The translations under genes and the position numbers were made by a program. The notes below the pieces were generated by a model. The model did not search any database, was not told the DNA's origin, and saw only the letters and a list, made by a program, of their open reading frames with translations. Positions 29,573 through 41,544 of a stretch of DNA of 55,431 bases are shown in pieces (the stretch's first letter is position 1; every line of letters starts with the position of its first letter). The DNA is from a virus, in the IMG/VR virus record IMGVR_UViG_3300007523_000015, positions 1 to 55,431 of that record. One strand, given 5' to 3'.

Positions 29573-29708
29573 GTCTCTCCATTGCACCTTTTAATATCTT
29601 GTTCATTTCCCTAAGGGAATCTAACTGACCTTGTATTTTTTCTTCATTGGTTAATTCGGCCTGTTCATCTATTTGTTTTTGTTCTTTATCGACCTTTTTA
29701 TCTTTCAT
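29547..29708 (-). CDS. small charged helical protein
   Basis: 53 residues: MKDKKVDKEQKQIDEQAELT, then a Lys/Glu-rich helix ending HETIRSNH. Too short for most gene callers, but it fills the gap between the endonuclease and the 81-residue gene with 4-base and 26-base overlaps, the packing seen elsewhere here. The heptad-like charge pattern suggests a coiled coil. Function unknown; a prohead core peptide is one possibility. Confidence 0.55.
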   Translation of the reverse strand: MKDKKVDKEQKQIDEQAELTNEEKIQGQLDSLREMNKILKGAMERHETIRSNH

Positions 29709-31212
29709 ACCGTACCCATTATATATTTATTTTCTATATCCCATATCCACACATCGTTGCCACAGTCCCAAAGCCGATCATATCCATTGTTCTTCATATT
29801 GTCCCATTCTGTAATATTGCAATCAAAATTCTCCAGTAATTCGGACAATTTATGTTTTTGATATTTTAATCTATTCTCGAAAGTATAATAATTCTTTGTA
29901 TAATAGTATGCTGGATTGGATGAATGAGAATATTTAAATCCTAGCACTGTGTACATATTTCCGTTAAATTTGTCTATATGAGAATATGATGTAATATGCT
30001 CCCACTTATATCTAATTATCGAATATTTGAAAAGTTTAGAACTTCCTCCAATGACACTTGTATTAAGTTTATTACAAAATCTCAGTAACTCGATACCAGA
30101 TTTTTTAAATCTTGCTTTCCCAAAAGACATTACCGAAACTAGTTCATTTTCATAGTATAGGCCGTGACACACCGAACTAGAGACATATCCTTGTAAATGG
30201 TTATTATTTAGAAACTCTCGTTCAGTGATAGCATCAATTTCTCTAATTTCTGTTTTTCTAGCATATAATGTATTCGATAATCTTAGTCTTGATTTTATCA
30301 TAGATTTTATTATATCTTTCTTATATTTCCATTCATAATCGAAAATATGTAAAAGATCAATTTCTGTCTTTCTACATTCGTTTGTTTTATTTATATGATA
30401 ATACTTATCTTTGTTTCCGGAAAGTTCCGAATGCCAAAAGGCACCGTTGTATTCGATTGCTAATTTGAGTTCAGGTAGTAGATATCAAGCTCTTTAGGGG
30501 GAATAATGGATCTATTATTTAATATAATGCTAATGTCCGGGACTAAGGATTTAATAAATAACGAAATTTCCAGCTCTTCTTGTGATTTTATAAAATATAA
30601 TACATCAATCCCATTCTTATTATACATTTTTCCTAGTTGGGATTTACTTATACCTAATTCTTCTGCAATAATATATATGGGTCGTTGATTAACTTGATGT
30701 TCTGTCTGCAGCCAGACTGTGTCATTAGATTTTAATATAGCGTCTTGAGTAATATGGGTTTGTGTGTGATTAGATCTTCCATACTTTAATAAATTAGTAG
30801 TTCGTGTTTTCTCTTTTGTACTGATCAACTTTGACGGAAACTCTACATTATATTTTTTTAAATTTGTTGCCTTTATAGAATCCATTACCGATTTATTCTG
30901 TGTCGGAAACTCTGTACCGTATCTCTCAATATTAGTAAATTTAATCCGATCTCTTATTTTGCTATTCATCAATGGATTTTCAACGCCATATCTTTCGATA
31001 TTCGTTTTCTTGTATTTTTCTTTTAATTCCTGCGATTGTGCTGTATTTTCTACACCGTATCTTTCGAGATTCGTTTTTCTTCTTTTTTCCTTTATACTGT
31101 CCATGATAAAATTTCGAGATATGACTTGCCCAATCTTGCTACAGGCTGTCGAGCAATATAGTATGCCTTTCTTACCAACAATATTTTCGCACTTCTCTAA
31201 TTTACATTTCAT
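29705..31212 (-). pseudogene. repeat-type Vsr-like homing endonuclease broken by a frameshift
   Basis: Two frames together match the intact 519-residue endonuclease at 35668-37227. The 5' frame (31212-30460) gives a zinc-finger-like start (MKCKLEKCENIVGKKGILYC), five [LI]-x-[RK]-Y-G-V-E-N repeats, a helix-turn-helix, and reaches ELDIYYLNSN before a stop. The other frame continues with LPELKLAIEYNGAFWHSEL and the nuclease, then the C-terminal YARKTEIREI domain to 29705. Loss of one base near 30475-30484 explains the break. The 3' portion could still start at an ATG at 30301. It overlaps gp4 by 4 bases. Confidence 0.8.
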
Positions 31213-32763: not shown

Positions 32764-34017
32764 TTAGACAGGGCCGCCTCCTGTTCTGTTTACATCCTGA
32801 TATGATGTACTGGATTTAGTCGCAGAAGATGCAAATGGTCGGCTTATTATTATCGCTGGAGGTACTTTAGCATATGGAGTAGGAGAAATATTTGCTAGTC
32901 CACTCAACACACTTGCACTAACCCTTCTCACAATTTTATCAGATGCAAATGCACCGGTTACAGCACCAATTGACGATTGAACATTTTTCCCAATACGTTG
33001 AAGAATTGGATTGTCGGATGCTAATAATGGATTATTAGACTCGATGAAGTCATTTAGTGTTGCATTGAAAGCTAACGCTGGCAATTCGAGAAATTCTCCA
33101 TGCTCGAATGGCTCCTTTGTGGAATCATTACTACCGCCCAATTTCAAATTCTGAATCGTATAATAGGCATATTCGTATTCGAACGTAAACGTTAGCTCTA
33201 ATGTTTTAGAACTTTCTGCATAATTCAGAACATCATGCGTGAATGCTGAGACTCTGGGATTAACTAAAGTAACTTGATTAAATCGGCCACCATGAACCTG
33301 GAATATGTCAATTGTCTGTATTAAACTCCTGACATTATTAACAGTCTGCAAATTATATCCGAAATTATGATTATCGATTGTGTTACTTACGATATTATTT
33401 AATGATTGCTTATTCCCCAGGGTATTAGTCGGTAACCAAGAATTGTTAGGGGAGTTGCTTTGGAATAAATTCTTAATACTAGCAGGCAATCCAATGATGT
33501 TAGGATTGAAGGACGGGGTTATATTTTTTAAGAAAGATTCTACTGTATAAGTTCCGTTCTTCTGAGGTACTTGTTTTGCTTCGTTTTTCCCTGGCTCATT
33601 CCCATCCATGAAATAGTATCTGTAATACATATCCCAGAACTTAAGAGTTTTACCATCCGCTACGTCGTGGAATACCATCTTAACTGGCTCGAATGAGATT
33701 TTACTTTGACTTATTCTTTTTCTGTTATACTGATTTAAGTGGTCTGTATCTATTTTCATGGATGGCATTTCGACTGTCTTAACCAACGGAGTTACTTGAT
33801 TCCATGTAGGGTTGTTAAAATAGGTATTGATATATTGGCTAGCAGTAGCCACTTTGTTTAAATTTATACTTACGTAATACTCGAACGGAAATCTGGGTTG
33901 ATTCTTATATAATGATTGGCCGTCTTGATTAAAGTTATAGGAGGCATGGCGAGAATTCTTTTCATAAAAGAATCCCGCACCAGTTAACGATGTAAATAAA
34001 CTTGAGAATGAGGGCAT
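32764..34017 (-). CDS. baseplate tube-cap-like structural protein (gp54/gp48 type)
   Basis: 417 residues. FPFEYYVSINLNKVATASQY, PLVKTVEMPSMKIDTDHLNQ and FEPVKMVFHDVADG then KFWDMYYRYY are features of the T4 tube-fold superfamily in exo-T4 phages, where the first central-tube rings are gp48 and gp54. It lies two genes from the gp19 tube, separated by an endonuclease. The C-terminal 100 residues are Ser/Ala-rich. I am confident it is a tail-tube-related structural protein, less so which T4 number applies. Confidence 0.65.
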   Translation of the reverse strand: MPSFSSLFTSLTGAGFFYEKNSRHASYNFNQDGQSLYKNQPRFPFEYYVSINLNKVATASQYINTYFNNPTWNQVTPLVKTVEMPSMKIDTDHLNQYNRKRISQSKISFEPVKMVFHDVADGKTLKFWDMYYRYYFMDGNEPGKNEAKQVPQKNGTYTVESFLKNITPSFNPNIIGLPASIKNLFQSNSPNNSWLPTNTLGNKQSLNNIVSNTIDNHNFGYNLQTVNNVRSLIQTIDIFQVHGGRFNQVTLVNPRVSAFTHDVLNYAESSKTLELTFTFEYEYAYYTIQNLKLGGSNDSTKEPFEHGEFLELPALAFNATLNDFIESNNPLLASDNPILQRIGKNVQSSIGAVTGAFASDKIVRRVSASVLSGLANISPTPYAKVPPAIIISRPFASSATKSSTSYQDVNRTGGGPV

Positions 34018-34025
34018 AATACTAT

Positions 34026-34925
34026 TTACCTATCTAAAAGATTTCCATGTTTATCAAAAATCATGAACTTGAAATTATACCCTGCATCCAGACAGGCTTG
34101 CCTCTTCAAAATATTTCTAGGGATATTTTTATTATAAGTATATAGAGATTTTACTTCTATAATAAGATTTTCATCCAAAATATATAGATCGGGAAAGTAA
34201 TAATGATTCTTGCCATCATCTGTCTTATATACTATCCTAGGTTTATCAAATGTATCAATCATTATCCTGTCTTCGGAATAATTTTCCAATAAATAATCGA
34301 TGGCAAACGGTTCATATCCCTGTACACCTACTATCTTTCCACTAGGCATTTGATATGATTTTATCCTATATTGACGCTTCATTGTTCTTTCATATACACC
34401 CGTATCTTGTGCAGAGTTTTCGACACCGTATTTCTTCAAACAAGAGTCTTTAGATTTCTGCCTAATTACTGCATTCATTTGTGGAGCATCTACTCCATAT
34501 TTTTCAACACATGTGGACTTAGATCTATCCTTGAAATCCTTTGTCTTCTGTGGTTTTTCTACTCCGTATTTCTTCAGACAAGTCTCTTTAGACTTTTTTT
34601 CTATTTCTGGCAAAAGTTGTGGTTTGTCCGTGCCATATTTTTCTATATTGGTCGATTTCATTTTAGCCAAAAATATAGGGGAATGAGATGGATTCTCAAC
34701 CCCATATTTTTCTAAATTTGTTTCTTTAATTTTATCTTTTACTGCAGATGTCGATGCTGGATTCTTAACTCCATACCTTTCCAAACTGGTTTTCTGCATT
34801 GCTGAAACTACACCAATTTTCTGGCAGACCGACGAGCAGTACGATTTATACTGTCCGTCTTTCTTCCTTACCTCAGTTACAAGAACCTTACAGTCTATGT
34901 TCTTGCATTTTTGCCCATTTATCAT
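34026..34925 (-). CDS. repeat-type homing endonuclease with PD-(D/E)XK nuclease domain
   Basis: 299 residues. An N-terminal Cys cluster (KCKNIDCK ... YCSSVCQKIG) is followed by six repeats of the form [LI]-x-K-Y-G-V-x-[NKD] (residues about 50-190). The nuclease near residues 240-262 reads YFPDLYILDENLIIEVKSLY, a clear PD-(D/E)XK signature. The repeat module is shared with the endonucleases at 29705 and 35668, which carry a different nuclease, so domains have been swapped. It is inserted between the tube-related gene and gp19. A late promoter and a hairpin covering its ribosome binding site lie upstream. Confidence 0.85.
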   Translation of the reverse strand: MINGQKCKNIDCKVLVTEVRKKDGQYKSYCSSVCQKIGVVSAMQKTSLERYGVKNPASTSAVKDKIKETNLEKYGVENPSHSPIFLAKMKSTNIEKYGTDKPQLLPEIEKKSKETCLKKYGVEKPQKTKDFKDRSKSTCVEKYGVDAPQMNAVIRQKSKDSCLKKYGVENSAQDTGVYERTMKRQYRIKSYQMPSGKIVGVQGYEPFAIDYLLENYSEDRIMIDTFDKPRIVYKTDDGKNHYYFPDLYILDENLIIEVKSLYTYNKNIPRNILKRQACLDAGYNFKFMIFDKHGNLLDR

Positions 34926-34927
34926 AA

Positions 34928-34955
34928 AATACCTTACAAATTTTAGTAAAGTATT
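34928..34955 (-). promoter_or_regulatory. hairpin masking the endonuclease ribosome binding site
   Basis: On the minus strand AATACTTTAC (34955-34946) pairs with GTAAGGTATT (34937-34928), ten pairs with one G-U and an 8-base loop. The 3' arm holds the TAAGG ribosome binding site, 6 bases before the ATG at 34925. The 5' arm overlaps the late promoter, so late transcripts would start after it and leave the site open. Confidence 0.65.
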
Positions 34956-34959
34956 TATA
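34952..34959 (-). promoter_or_regulatory. T4 late promoter TATAAATA
   Basis: Perfect TATAAATA on the minus strand, 27 bases before the endonuclease start. It overlaps the 5' arm of the hairpin; the expected transcription start is near 34945-34946. Confidence 0.7.
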
Positions 34960-34976
34960 CAATAGACAGCAATGCG

Positions 34977-35591
34977 TCAGGCAAACGTGGTTCCGCCAGT
35001 TGGACTTGCGATACCTGGATATGGATTTCCACCAACAGTTGTTCCGTCGTTTGTATTTGGACCAGAAACGTTAGTTGCGTTGTCGAATCTAATAGACAAT
35101 GTTACTTCCTGTGAATCACCTGATGAATAATCGCCTTCGCCGTATGTGGCTTCTTTTAACCAGCATCCGTCTAGTACCCATGATTCTAACTGTTCATTGT
35201 TTGTACCATCCAACGAGTGGATTTCCATCGTGAATTTGTAGTTAATACCTGCAACTGCACTTGTCTGTTCAAAATGGTTCATTTGTTTCTGAACCTGTGC
35301 ACCAACCGAGGAAATGACTGCATTTGTAATATCATCACGTAGTTTAATCTCGATAGGCTCGAATGTGTGCTTACCCTGAATCCATGCAACCGAGTTGTAT
35401 GAATGCAATTCAGCCTCGGACCAAGAAATCTTTGGTCGGGTGACTGTTATAACGTTAGCAGTCATTTCTCGTAAACCATTATTCTCGCCAAAGTTCTGCC
35501 ACACTACCCTGAAGCGATATTTCTGCTTTGGGTGTAATATGCCTAGTTTGTTTCCGTCTAAAGGAATACCAAATTTTGCTAAGTTTGCCAT
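34977..35591 (-). CDS. gp19: gp19 tail tube protein
   Basis: 204 residues. MANLAKFGIPLDGNKLGILH, KYRFRVVWQNFG, TVTRPKISWSEAELHSYNS and WIQGKHTFEPIEIKLRDD follow the exo-T4 gp19 pattern, with a Gly/Pro/Thr-rich C-terminus. It polymerises into the inner tube of the contractile tail, inside gp18. GGAGA lies before the ATG and a late promoter 52 bases upstream. In T4 gp18 and gp19 are adjacent; here a plus-strand endonuclease and a peptidase gene separate them. Confidence 0.92.
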   Translation of the reverse strand: MANLAKFGIPLDGNKLGILHPKQKYRFRVVWQNFGENNGLREMTANVITVTRPKISWSEAELHSYNSVAWIQGKHTFEPIEIKLRDDITNAVISSVGAQVQKQMNHFEQTSAVAGINYKFTMEIHSLDGTNNEQLESWVLDGCWLKEATYGEGDYSSGDSQEVTLSIRFDNATNVSGPNTNDGTTVGGNPYPGIASPTGGTTFA

Positions 35592-35608: not shown

Positions 35609-35616
35609 TATAAATA
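35609..35616 (+). promoter_or_regulatory. T4 late promoter TATAAATA for plus-strand endonuclease
   Basis: Perfect TATAAATA on the plus strand, 52 bases before the ATG at 35668. It lies within the leader of gp19 on the other strand, so the two late promoters face divergently and overlap in reach. Confidence 0.7.
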
Positions 35617-35642: not shown

Positions 35643-35650
35643 TATTTATC
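35643..35650 (-). promoter_or_regulatory. T4-type late promoter GATAAATA for gp19
   Basis: GATAAATA on the minus strand, 52 bases before the gp19 start at 35591, the same spacing as at the gp18 promoter. Confidence 0.7.
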
Positions 35651-35667: not shown

Positions 35668-37227
35668 ATGACTATCGAAATCCGAAACTGTAAAATATGC
35701 GACACACCGTTTACTTCACAAAAATGGTATAAAAAGGAAACATGCTCGCGATCATGTGGTGCTGCTCTTTCAATAGAAACAAAGAAAGTAATGTATGGTG
35801 ATAAGTTAGAATTAATTACAGCAAAGAGAATATCAAGCAACTTAGCAAAATATGGGGTCGAATCCACTTTATTAGTCCCGTCTATTCAGGAACAGATTAG
35901 AAAAACCACATTAAAAAAATACGGAACAGAGTGGGCGAGTCAATCTCTAATGGCAAAGAATAAAAGTCAATTAACTTGCTTGACAAAATACGGAGTTACA
36001 TCTTTTTCTAAAACTACAGAATTCTTAGAAAAATCTAAAAATACTAATTTAGAAAGACACGGGGTTGATAATGTATTTAAAAACACAGATATGGTAAAAA
36101 AATCGTATATACAGAAACTCGGAGTAACACATCCGATGAGGCTTTCGTCAGTTGTAGACAAGTGCAAGGCTACAAATACTGAACGGTATGGATCTAATTG
36201 GCCTCAACAAGCACATATACCAGAAAATACAAACTCTATATTAGAAAATAAAGATTGGCTCGAGACCGAATATACTGTAAATAAGAGATCAATTGAGAGC
36301 ATTGCTACAGAATGCGAAGTAGGTTACACCTATATTTTAAACAAATTAAAGAAGTTTGCTATACCGATCATAAAAAACATATCTGACCTGGAATTAGACA
36401 TAGGATTATATGTTGCTGAATTTGTCAATTTTGAAAAAAACTGTAGGGATATAATAGGATTAGAACTAGACATATATATACCGGAATATAATTTAGCAAT
36501 AGAATGCAATGGATCGTATTGGCATAGTGAATTAAATGGTAAAGACAAAAACTATCATCTGAACAAAACAACCTTATGCAACGAACGTGGAATACACTTA
36601 TTGCATATCTGGGAGCATGACTGGAAAATCAAACAACAGATTATTAAATCAAAGATTAGTTCTTTACTGGGGAAAAATAAAAAAATCTATGCAAGAAAGT
36701 GTACTATAAGAGAAGTTAATACAGTCGACTCTAATAGGTTTCTGTACAATAATCATATTCAGGGGGTTTGCGCATCATCGACGAAAATTGGATTATATTT
36801 CGAAAATGAATTAGTTACTGTAATGACTTTTGGCAAAAGTAGATTTAATAAGAATATAGAGTACGAACTATTAAGATATGCATCACTGTCAGGTACTACT
36901 ATAATTGGCGGGGCAAGTAAGTCACTTCAGCATTTCTTAAAAACATATTCTCCAAAATCTGTAATATCTTATTCAGACAAAGCTATGAACAAGGGCAATA
37001 TGTATAAAGCCATTGGATTTACTAAAGTTAGTGAGTCGCCACCGGGGTATAAATATACTAAAAATTATTCTAATTTTTATCCTCGTGTAAAATTTCAAAA
37101 ACATAAATTACCATTATTGCTAGAAAATGTTAATATGTCACTCACCGAATGGGATAATATGAAGAATAACGGATATGATCGTATCTGGGACTGTGGCAAT
37201 GATGTATTTACATTATCGCTCGAGTAG
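35668..37227 (+). CDS. intact repeat-type Vsr-like homing endonuclease
   Basis: 519 residues in four parts. A treble-clef-like Cys motif (CKICDTPFTSQKWYKKETC); about six repeats with core [LI]-x-[KR]-[YHL]-G-V; a helix-turn-helix near residues 205-230; a Vsr/EDxHD-type nuclease (LDIYIPEYNLAIECNGSYWH, LHIWEHDW); and a C-terminal domain from IYARKCTIREV to GNDVFTLSLE whose MTFGKSRF ... GGASKSLQHFL pattern resembles GNAT or Mom-like folds. It is the intact counterpart of the broken gene at 29705-31212. Inserted on the plus strand between gp19 and the peptidase, with its own late promoter. Confidence 0.88.
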   Translation: MTIEIRNCKICDTPFTSQKWYKKETCSRSCGAALSIETKKVMYGDKLELITAKRISSNLAKYGVESTLLVPSIQEQIRKTTLKKYGTEWASQSLMAKNKSQLTCLTKYGVTSFSKTTEFLEKSKNTNLERHGVDNVFKNTDMVKKSYIQKLGVTHPMRLSSVVDKCKATNTERYGSNWPQQAHIPENTNSILENKDWLETEYTVNKRSIESIATECEVGYTYILNKLKKFAIPIIKNISDLELDIGLYVAEFVNFEKNCRDIIGLELDIYIPEYNLAIECNGSYWHSELNGKDKNYHLNKTTLCNERGIHLLHIWEHDWKIKQQIIKSKISSLLGKNKKIYARKCTIREVNTVDSNRFLYNNHIQGVCASSTKIGLYFENELVTVMTFGKSRFNKNIEYELLRYASLSGTTIIGGASKSLQHFLKTYSPKSVISYSDKAMNKGNMYKAIGFTKVSESPPGYKYTKNYSNFYPRVKFQKHKLPLLLENVNMSLTEWDNMKNNGYDRIWDCGNDVFTLSLE

Positions 37228-37370
37228 TCACATGGATGTTATCGAATATGCTTCGCCGATATCATTTTCACATTCGTATGGCAACAATCCTATACCGTGA
37301 TCTCCCCATTTCGGCCAACAGAATTAGCTATAATCCATGCTTCCGCAGTATATCCTATAATTACTACAGC
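37228..37370 (-). pseudogene. remnant of a second papain-like peptidase C-terminus
   Basis: The minus strand encodes GHAVVIIGY ... WIIANSVG, then after a one-base frameshift PKWGDHGIGLLPYECENDIG ending in a stop. This parallels the intact peptidase's NHAITIVGY ... WIIANSAG and WGNRGFGAISYACNVDIG. The remnant begins within the last codons of the intact gene in another frame and lacks the first two thirds. It is a diverged tandem copy that has decayed and been trimmed. Confidence 0.75.
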
Positions 37371-38086
37371 ATGTCCTTTAGATTCTCAATTATCGGAAAT
37401 TTTTTATCTATGGTGATTCCTGCAAATTCAGTTATAACAAATGACTCGCCGATATCGACATTGCAAGCATAGGATATAGCGCCAAACCCCCTATTTCCCC
37501 ACGGTAATCCTGCAGAATTTGCTATAATCCACGATCCATCCGACAGGTTGTCATCGTAACCCACTATAGTTATAGCGTGGTTTAAGGAATGCCTGTTATC
37601 TGTATCATTTACTGAACCGTACAGATGATTTTCATATGGTCCCTTTAACTTCCAGAATTTTCTTCCAGTTTTTATTCCAACTATGATAGGTATGCCCGAC
37701 AGAAGGTAATCCTTAAATTCGTTTATACCGATATGGCTGAATTTATTTAATCTGTATTCCCTTGCACATTCTTCGACCGCAGCATGTGGTTCCTTATCTA
37801 TATAATTGTGTCTCAGAGGCCAGACATTGTCGGGCGCGGCGCCATATAGCTCCATAGACCTAAGTGTATTATACAATGATACACCTTTCTGTTTTAATCT
37901 ATTACCCAATTTCCTAGCCATGTAATAGACATATAGGCGTGACAGAGGTTTTGTTCTATTTTGCGAGTTTAGAAATATTTCAGCTGCTAAAAGACTCGAA
38001 CTTGCAGAACAACATCCTATATTTTCTTGTGAGGGCATTGCATATATGAGATGTTGCAAACTACAAGAAGAAGGTAAAATATCCAT
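37364..38086 (-). CDS. papain-like (C1-type) cysteine peptidase
   Basis: 240 residues from the ATG at 38086. The catalytic triad is readable: SQENIGCCSASSS (oxyanion Gln and nucleophile Cys, residues about 19-31), HAITIVGYDD (His near 176) and WIIANSAGLPWGNRGF (Asn near 191 and the following W-G). That is papain-family architecture without a propeptide or signal sequence, so it would act in the host cytoplasm or in the prohead. It lies between tail genes and is not a T4 core gene. GATAAATA ends 4 bases before the ATG. Substrates are unknown. Confidence 0.8.
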   Translation of the reverse strand: MDILPSSCSLQHLIYAMPSQENIGCCSASSSLLAAEIFLNSQNRTKPLSRLYVYYMARKLGNRLKQKGVSLYNTLRSMELYGAAPDNVWPLRHNYIDKEPHAAVEECAREYRLNKFSHIGINEFKDYLLSGIPIIVGIKTGRKFWKLKGPYENHLYGSVNDTDNRHSLNHAITIVGYDDNLSDGSWIIANSAGLPWGNRGFGAISYACNVDIGESFVITEFAGITIDKKFPIIENLKDML

Positions 38087-38090
38087 CAAA

Positions 38091-40714: not shown

Positions 40715-40731
40715 GATAAATAATATAAATA
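40715..40731 (+). promoter_or_regulatory. double late promoter for plus-strand GIY-YIG gene
   Basis: GATAAATA (40715-40722) and TATAAATA (40724-40731) on the plus strand, 52 and 43 bases before the ATG at 40774. Confidence 0.65.
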
Positions 40732-40751: not shown

Positions 40752-40759
40752 TATTTATA
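40752..40759 (-). promoter_or_regulatory. T4 late promoter TATAAATA for gp18
   Basis: Perfect TATAAATA on the minus strand, 52 bases before the gp18 start. It overlaps the leader of the plus-strand endonuclease gene. Confidence 0.7.
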
Positions 40760-40773
40760 TGAAAGGCACTAAA

Positions 40774-41544
40774 ATGACACCAATATGTACTCCCATAAAC
40801 GGAATTATTTATAAGATAACTAACATTATAAACGGAATGTGGTATATAGGGAAAGATGAAAGAGATGATCCAAAATATTTAGGAAGCGGTGTCTATCTTT
40901 CCAGGGCTATAGCCAATTACGGTAAGGATAATTTTACAAAAGATATATTGGATGGGGCACTTACATCCGAGAAACTAGCTTTATTGGAAGCAGAATATAT
41001 AGAAAAATTTAATGCTACTACTAGCCAAATGTCCTACAATATAGCTGCCGGGGGGTATGGTGGTAACACATTGGGAGGAATGGATAATACAGACAAGATA
41101 AAATTTTCCGAGAAAATGTCCGAAACATGGGATAATTTAACAATAGAGGCAAAACGAGATCGTATTTCTCCAATGAATACTGCTGTAAAAGGGAAACCAA
41201 AAACACGAAGACACCGGGATAAGATATCGAAATCAAAAACCGGAACTAAGCAGAGTATTGAAACTATAGAAAAGAAGAGATTAATTAGTAAAAAATTATA
41301 CGACGAAGGAAGAATATCGCCACCAAAGAATGATTGGGCAGGCCGAATTCATTCCACTGAATCTAAAATTAAGATATCTAAGGCGAAGACCGGAATAAAA
41401 AATTATAAGAAAAGATTATTTACGCAAGAGGATTGCACAGAAATGAAGAAATTAAAAGATTCAGGTATTAGTACCAGGATTATTGCAAAAATATTTTCTA
41501 CAACCACACCGACTATATTAAGATATATAAGAGAACTATCATAA
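40774..41544 (+). CDS. GIY-YIG homing endonuclease between gp18 and gp1
   Basis: 256 residues from the ATG at 40774, with AAAGG seven bases upstream; two earlier in-frame starts (TTG 40738, ATG 40759) are less likely. GIY-YIG core NGIIYKITNIINGMWYIGK with DILDGALTSEKLALLEAEYI carrying the catalytic Glu and a YNIAAGGYGGNT segment. NUMOD3-like repeats (RDKISKSKTGTK, KIKISKAKTGIK) and a C-terminal helix-turn-helix (ISTRIIAKIFSTTTPTILRY) follow. It is divergent from gp18 and convergent with gp1. Confidence 0.88.
   Translation: MTPICTPINGIIYKITNIINGMWYIGKDERDDPKYLGSGVYLSRAIANYGKDNFTKDILDGALTSEKLALLEAEYIEKFNATTSQMSYNIAAGGYGGNTLGGMDNTDKIKFSEKMSETWDNLTIEAKRDRISPMNTAVKGKPKTRRHRDKISKSKTGTKQSIETIEKKRLISKKLYDEGRISPPKNDWAGRIHSTESKIKISKAKTGIKNYKKRLFTQEDCTEMKKLKDSGISTRIIAKIFSTTTPTILRYIRELS

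Follow-up and report, generated by a model that had tools for sequence, protein, structure and literature searches.

A late-type promoter within a predicted ribosome-binding-site hairpin before a DUF7487 homing-endonuclease-like gene at a phage tail tube locus

Organisation of the tail tube locus

The window, by which we mean the whole stretch of virus DNA analysed (55,431 bases; IMG/VR record IMGVR_UViG_3300007523_000015), carries a T4-like structural block. On its minus strand a tail tube gene is followed by a homing-endonuclease-like gene and then by a second tube-like gene. The tail tube protein shares 50% identity with the tube proteins of Pseudomonas phage PA5oct and Agrobacterium phage Atu_ph07, both jumbo phages. 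The tube stop codon occupies 34979-34977, with 51 bases from there to the endonuclease ATG (34925). The features of the locus are as follows.

35643-35650, minus strand: late-type promoter GATAAATA of the tail tube gene, within the NRTAAATA class of tube loci
34977-35591, minus strand: tail tube gene (PHROG 4542, E 4.2e-54), upstream of the endonuclease and source of the read-through RNA
34905-34975, minus strand: full minimum free energy (MFE) hairpin from folding, starting just past the tube stop codon and enclosing the Shine-Dalgarno sequence (SD), the AUG and the first codons
34952-34959, minus strand: late-type promoter octamer TATAAATA, predicted +1 at about 34946 (range 34947-34944) from T4 octamer geometry
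34946-34956, minus strand: core hairpin 5' arm AAATACTTTAC, overlapping the promoter
34927-34937, minus strand: core hairpin 3' arm GTAAGGTATTT
34932-34936, minus strand: SD, TAAGG, by sequence, within the 3' arm
34026-34925, minus strand: homing-endonuclease-like gene (299 residues), DUF7487 repeats and a C-terminal PD-(D/E)XK-type nuclease domain, assigned from Pfam, PHROG and invariant residues
34023-34030, minus strand: variant late promoter GGTAAATA, 13 nt before the ATG of the next gene, whose mRNA is predicted to be leaderless
32764-34017, minus strand: downstream tail-tube-like gene, T2 (PHROG 13438, E 6.8e-15)

Elsewhere in the block, a papain-family (Peptidase C1) gene (37364-38089, minus strand) sits between the tail sheath and tail tube genes. 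Two adjacent minus-strand frames, 29705-30301 and 30460-31212, match the C-terminal and N-terminal parts of the PHROG 3339 homing endonuclease respectively, as if a single homing endonuclease gene had been broken.

The endonuclease and its mobility

The 299-residue product matches Pfam DUF7487 (PF24308) with an E value of 2.2e-87 and a score of 293 against a cut-off of 27 bits, and also matches PHROG homing endonucleases. Residues P245 and D246, together with E257, V258 and K259, are invariant among six homologues, so that a PD..EVK motif, predicted to be catalytic, is kept. We take PD...EVK in this DUF7487 endonuclease to be the signature of PD-(D/E)XK nucleases. I-TevI is a GIY-YIG enzyme, and the description of the gene as an unrelated endonuclease, made in a reading of the sequence before any database search (hereafter the sequence-only reading), is borne out. 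KYGV..P repeats of 23 residues, about six in number and each predicted to form one helix, also occur in the protein (34026-34925) and look like a modular DNA-binding array. The structure predicted from six sequences had low overall quality (pLDDT 68), and a Foldseek search with this low-confidence model gave no match below E 0.001, the catalytic domain of I-Bth0305I appearing at E 0.035; we draw no proof from it.

Eighty tail-tube loci were collected, of which 76 were readable. At the same site 14 of these hold an insert, either the gene itself, a relative or a remnant, and 62 are empty. Presence and absence at one site supports the mobility of the predicted homing endonuclease.

A late-type promoter

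Counted over the whole window, TATAAATA is not enriched (9 found against 9.45 expected). When counting is restricted to the regions preceding called genes, in the window together with four related contigs, no 8-mer is more over-represented than GATAAATA, with 64 sense and 19 antisense copies against 2.3 expected; TATAAATA (15 sense, 5 antisense, 2.8 expected) and CATAAATA are enriched as well. The class NATAAATA is the strongest upstream 8-mer class in the clade and relatives use NATAAATA promoters, with a preference for G at the first octamer position, a point against the present reading. A gp55-like sigma was found in three of the five related records searched, the three largest (G001, G009 and G010; E 5e-77 to 6e-81), and the family of T4 gp55 itself matches the same sigma genes. 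The other two records, both smaller, gave no match to a gp55-like sigma; the window itself is a fragment. For jumbo phage CBB, the available part of PMC5259590 reports both an ATAAATA late motif and a gp55-like sigma.

T4 late octamers occupy -13 to -6, according to the available part of PMC2988020, which would place the endonuclease +1 at about 34946 and agrees with the start near 34945 anticipated from the sequence alone. The perfect octamer at 34959-34952 does overlap the 5' arm (34956-34946), as had also been claimed.

A hairpin over the ribosome binding site

The MFE of 34890-34980 is -24.6, compared with -12.3 +/- 2.4 for shuffled sequences (z -5.0), and none of 200 shuffles is as good. 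The hairpin that the sequence-only reading had drawn over TAAGG is confirmed by this, with its size revised: the core stem has 11 pairs, one of them G-U, closed by a loop of 8 nt, rather than 10 pairs, and the fold extends further, from 34975 to 34905. The predicted cost of opening positions -14 to +3 is 13.9 kcal/mol in read-through RNA and 3.2 kcal/mol in RNA started at the promoter. In T4 the corresponding costs for long and short RNA are 12.8 and 1.6 for I-TevI, 16.2 and 4.9 for segB and 15.6 and 3.6 for gene 49, compared with 1.7 and 0.8 for gene 22. Among eight relatives a cost of 8.9-15.4 drops to 0.6-5.2 when the RNA is started at the promoter. Some other leaders are costly too, such as that of the divergent T4 gene 53 (13.1 to open).

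Core pairing is kept over 12 distinct leaders of relatives, in which 83.8% of cells are paired compared with 38-54% when slid. Covariation is weak, with three pairs changed on both sides, a number reached by 157 of 500 shuffles. Most core pairs are invariant, so their conservation could stem from constraints on the promoter, SD and AUG, and the case for the stem rests on pairing relative to slid controls and on energetics rather than on covariation. The 5' arm reads ATAAATAC in 11 of the 12 leaders and the perfect complement ATAAAATAC in none, a retained mismatch that would be expected if the arm doubles as a promoter. In three of the 12 (L007, L195 and L080) the fold is only weakly better than that of shuffled sequences, of which 14-34 in 300 do as well. 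A second scan, using an alignment, added no further hairpin locus, and Rfam gave no match at the hairpin at E <= 1.

As a measure of chance pairing, a cognate score was computed by pairing each promoter segment with each SD/AUG segment over 73 leaders that carry NATAAATA at -22 to -60. The cognate duplex of the window endonuclease has an energy of -12.2 kcal/mol and is bettered by no non-cognate pairing of either half. Eight of the 73 leaders fall below the 1% quantile of non-cognate pairs, where 0.7 are expected. As a positive control the score was applied to T4 parts totalling 112 kb of the 168.9 kb; segB, I-TevI, gene 49 and I-TevII take the first four places among 20 leaders, and gene e with its annotated start scores -13.5. 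The claim that read-through RNA is masked and late RNA open is well supported by the predicted opening costs, by conservation and by this T4 control. The observation of a promoter nested in a hairpin arm is therefore confirmed, and the masking mechanism, modelled from folding, is likely.

Promoter-in-arm leaders before other genes

Six of the eight strongest leaders of set A (the window, G001, G002, G003 and G007) precede nucleases: two DUF7487 proteins, one HNH protein, one endonuclease VII, a PHROG 655 homing endonuclease and a PHROG 15427 endonuclease. This excess (Fisher p 0.0004; 0.005 without the tube-site genes) is counted against at least 8 nucleases behind the other 65 set A leaders, a lower bound from two tallies of the 25 commonest families each, in a comparison chosen after the list was seen.

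Complementarity between promoter and SD, corrected for non-cognate means, also depends on gene orientation. Behind co-directional genes it is -1.90, compared with +0.49 behind divergent genes, in set A (p 0.0022), -1.33 compared with +1.37 in G009 (p 0.0011), -1.49 compared with -0.68 in G010 (p 0.15) and -2.46 compared with -0.15 in the T4 parts (p 0.20). The direction is the same in all four gene sets and significant in two of them, sets A, G009 and G010 sharing homologous genes. The strongly complementary leaders, eight in set A, two in G010, one in G009 and two in the T4 parts, are all co-directional and none is divergent.

Viral contigs were searched for the promoter-spacer-start pattern, which gave 84 stretches; the 80 loci listed among these (L062-L141) were read. 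After deduplication 37 matches open a frame of at least 60 codons and 12 do not. Mean inner pairing beyond the searched letters is 3.9 in the gene-start matches, compared with 0.77 in shuffled sequences, and 1.3 compared with 0.68 in the non-gene matches. Representatives were scanned for gene labels and other members were labelled by sequence likeness. On these labels, promoter-in-arm hairpins in other phages precede RuvC-like resolvases (L065, L066, L068, L103, L137 and L139), endonuclease VII (L063 and L090), an endolysin (L101) and GIY-YIG proteins (L062, L073, L117, L118 and L129).

Alternative forms of the insertion

Eleven of the 14 inserts at the tail-tube site carry the hairpin together with a late-type promoter. 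The other three carry a sigma-70 promoter of the TTGACA-TATA type without such a hairpin. In these (L177 at about 2418-2500, L158 and L186) a TTGACA-17-TATA promoter replaces the late octamer, and in L177 a perfect hairpin directly follows the promoter. A further candidate, L007, in which a sigma-70 promoter appeared to overlap the arm, has a frame of only 68 codons and was treated as a decayed hybrid rather than as evidence. DUF7487 genes elsewhere lack the hairpin, so we rejected the view that every member of the family brings it along.

All 14 inserted sites have an NRTAAATA immediately ahead of the next gene, compared with 13 of 62 empty sites. The other 49 empty sites lack that NRTAAATA, and many have a strong SD close behind the tube gene. 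Either the cassette sits where the next gene is independent of tube RNA or it brings a promoter for the next gene; the data fit both.

Origin of the read-through RNA and proposed mechanism

Upstream of the tail tube gene NRTAAATA lies within 100 bases in 76 of 76 loci, as a motif rather than as measured RNA. No terminator was found between the tube gene and the endonuclease, and the gene beyond the tube gene in the window (35668-37227) runs the opposite way. Together these suggest that the read-through RNA entering the endonuclease is probably itself late, and that the hairpin probably discriminates between RNAs mainly by the promoter they come from and less by time. We propose that RNA reading through from the tail tube gene would carry the whole hairpin, with SD and AUG buried and the endonuclease silent, and that RNA from TATAAATA within the 5' arm would start at about 34946, lack the arm and be translatable. 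Given the late-type tube gene and no terminator found in between, the hairpin would probably serve mainly to keep abundant late read-through RNA from being translated into endonuclease, and so to limit its dose, exclusion of early read-through coming along with it. This reading, in which translation depends on the origin of the RNA, is the one we hold to be probable, although the start site itself, the silencing in vivo and a selected role in limiting dose are inferred from anatomy and predicted energetics.

Alternatively, the device may be a temporal switch as for T4 I-TevI, in which early and middle read-through is silent, late RNA is translated and dose control is not the point. The anatomy and energies match those of I-TevI and segB, and the known cases are read in this way in the available parts of two reviews (PMC2988022 and PMC3014915). 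However, the masked T4 homing endonuclease genes lie on early and middle polycistronic RNA, as described in section 12 of PMC2988022 in its available part, whereas the uniformly late-type tube promoter does not place the present gene on such RNA and, with the gene beyond it running the opposite way, means that most minus-strand RNA entering the endonuclease should be late. The regulatory logic of I-TevI, which the sequence-only reading took to be reproduced, stands for anatomy and energies but is incomplete as to purpose, an early/late timer not being what the local anatomy shows, and we regard a temporal switch as rather unlikely.

The remaining alternatives dispense with one or other half of the device. 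The octamer might be a real promoter whose pairing with the SD spacer is coincidental, since ATAAATAC complements GTATTTAT; given a promoter and a GTATTTT spacer the core pairs need nothing further, and the weak covariation is in keeping with this. Such a coincidence is nevertheless improbable, as no non-cognate half among the 73 leaders beats the cognate pair and as pairing runs past the octamer in the gene-start matches of the scan, to a greater extent than in the non-gene matches. Conversely, TATAAATA could be a by-product of complementing GGTATTTTATG and no promoter at all, as its lack of enrichment window-wide would allow and as might be read from L003, L006 and L017, which carry CATAAATA instead, and from L007, which carries TATAAGTA. 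Yet both CATAAATA and TATAAATA are over-represented ahead of genes, the retained one-base mismatch of ATAAATAC rather than ATAAAATAC fits a promoter, and the distance of -32 to -38 lies within or near the promoter peak of the clade, leaving the by-product reading very improbable. Finally, the stem might act as a terminator, as an RNase processing site or as a DNA operator for the endonuclease rather than in RBS masking. I-TevI does bind an operator overlapping its own late promoter, according to the available part of PMC2988022, but the stem has no terminator-like match and no Rfam match at the threshold given above, and in the compared relatives the pairing is centred on SD and AUG; we give these functions the least credence of all.

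Relation to known systems

The leaders of T4 I-TevI, I-TevII and I-TevIII likewise have a late promoter in or near the 5' arm of an RBS-sequestering hairpin, and those of I-TevI and I-TevII are recovered by the cognate score. They differ in being intron-encoded within early or middle genes, in specifying GIY-YIG or HNH nucleases and in having early or middle read-through. Closer in arrangement are T4 segB and Aeromonas phage Aeh1 mobE, free-standing endonuclease genes with an RBS-masking hairpin and a late promoter (available part of PMC2988022). These encode GIY-YIG and HNH nucleases and were inserted into groups of tRNA or nrd genes instead of following a late structural gene. For T4 e, 49 and soc, RNA from the late promoter lacks the 5' portion of a leader structure that is inhibitory, as described in the part of PMC3014915 available, and 49 and e score like the window endonuclease leader; these are resident phage genes, not mobile ones. 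Jumbo phage CBB has the same promoter motif class upstream of structural genes, although the available part of PMC5259590 reports no RBS-masking leader for it.

The present gene is not the only second case after I-TevI, as I-TevII, I-TevIII, segB and Aeh1 mobE are already described as masked (PMC2988022, section 12, in its available part). Prior accounts in the open-licence literature cover the T4 and Aeh1 cases, and none was found for the DUF7487 nuclease family. The regulatory logic is thus known, and what is new is the nuclease family, the late-on-late setting and the orientation trend. A textbook T4 device is extended to another nuclease family and to a jumbo-phage lineage far from T4, and the question shifts from timing to RNA origin, the read-through RNA at this locus being expected to be late as well. 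The insertion site permits presence, absence and an alternative sigma-70 version to be compared. The cognate score, which recovers known T4 cases, yields a list of candidate genes, mostly nucleases, and makes the insulator idea testable.

A broader and more tentative proposal, to which we give somewhat less than an even chance, is that hairpins of the promoter-in-arm kind serve T4-type and jumbo phages generally as insulators against read-through. They would mask dose-sensitive co-directional genes behind active genes, such as those for homing endonucleases, Holliday junction resolvases and endolysins, with the gene's own promoter serving as the antisense mask and translation being licensed by promoter rather than by time. 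Non-homologous resolvases (RuvC-like and endonuclease VII) would then have acquired the device independently.

Other arrangements of the octamer

A class of leaderless late mRNAs is predicted, with the octamer placed 11-16 nt ahead of the start codon so that the +1 falls on or beside the AUG. It includes 34030-34017 (minus strand) in the window and loci L169, L172, L173 and L188-L191. Of the NATAAATA promoters that lie within 70 nt, this class makes up 23 of 101 in set A, 16 of 66 in G009, 8 of 52 in G010 and none of 23 in the T4 parts.

Two pairs of late-type octamers face past each other between divergent genes in the window, at 35609-35616 (plus strand) with 35643-35650 (minus strand) and at 40724-40731 (plus strand) with 40752-40759 (minus strand). 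One octamer of each pair serves a homing-endonuclease-like gene (35668-37227 and 40774-41544, both plus strand). As the octamers point past each other, the two RNAs of a pair would begin with complementary sequence.
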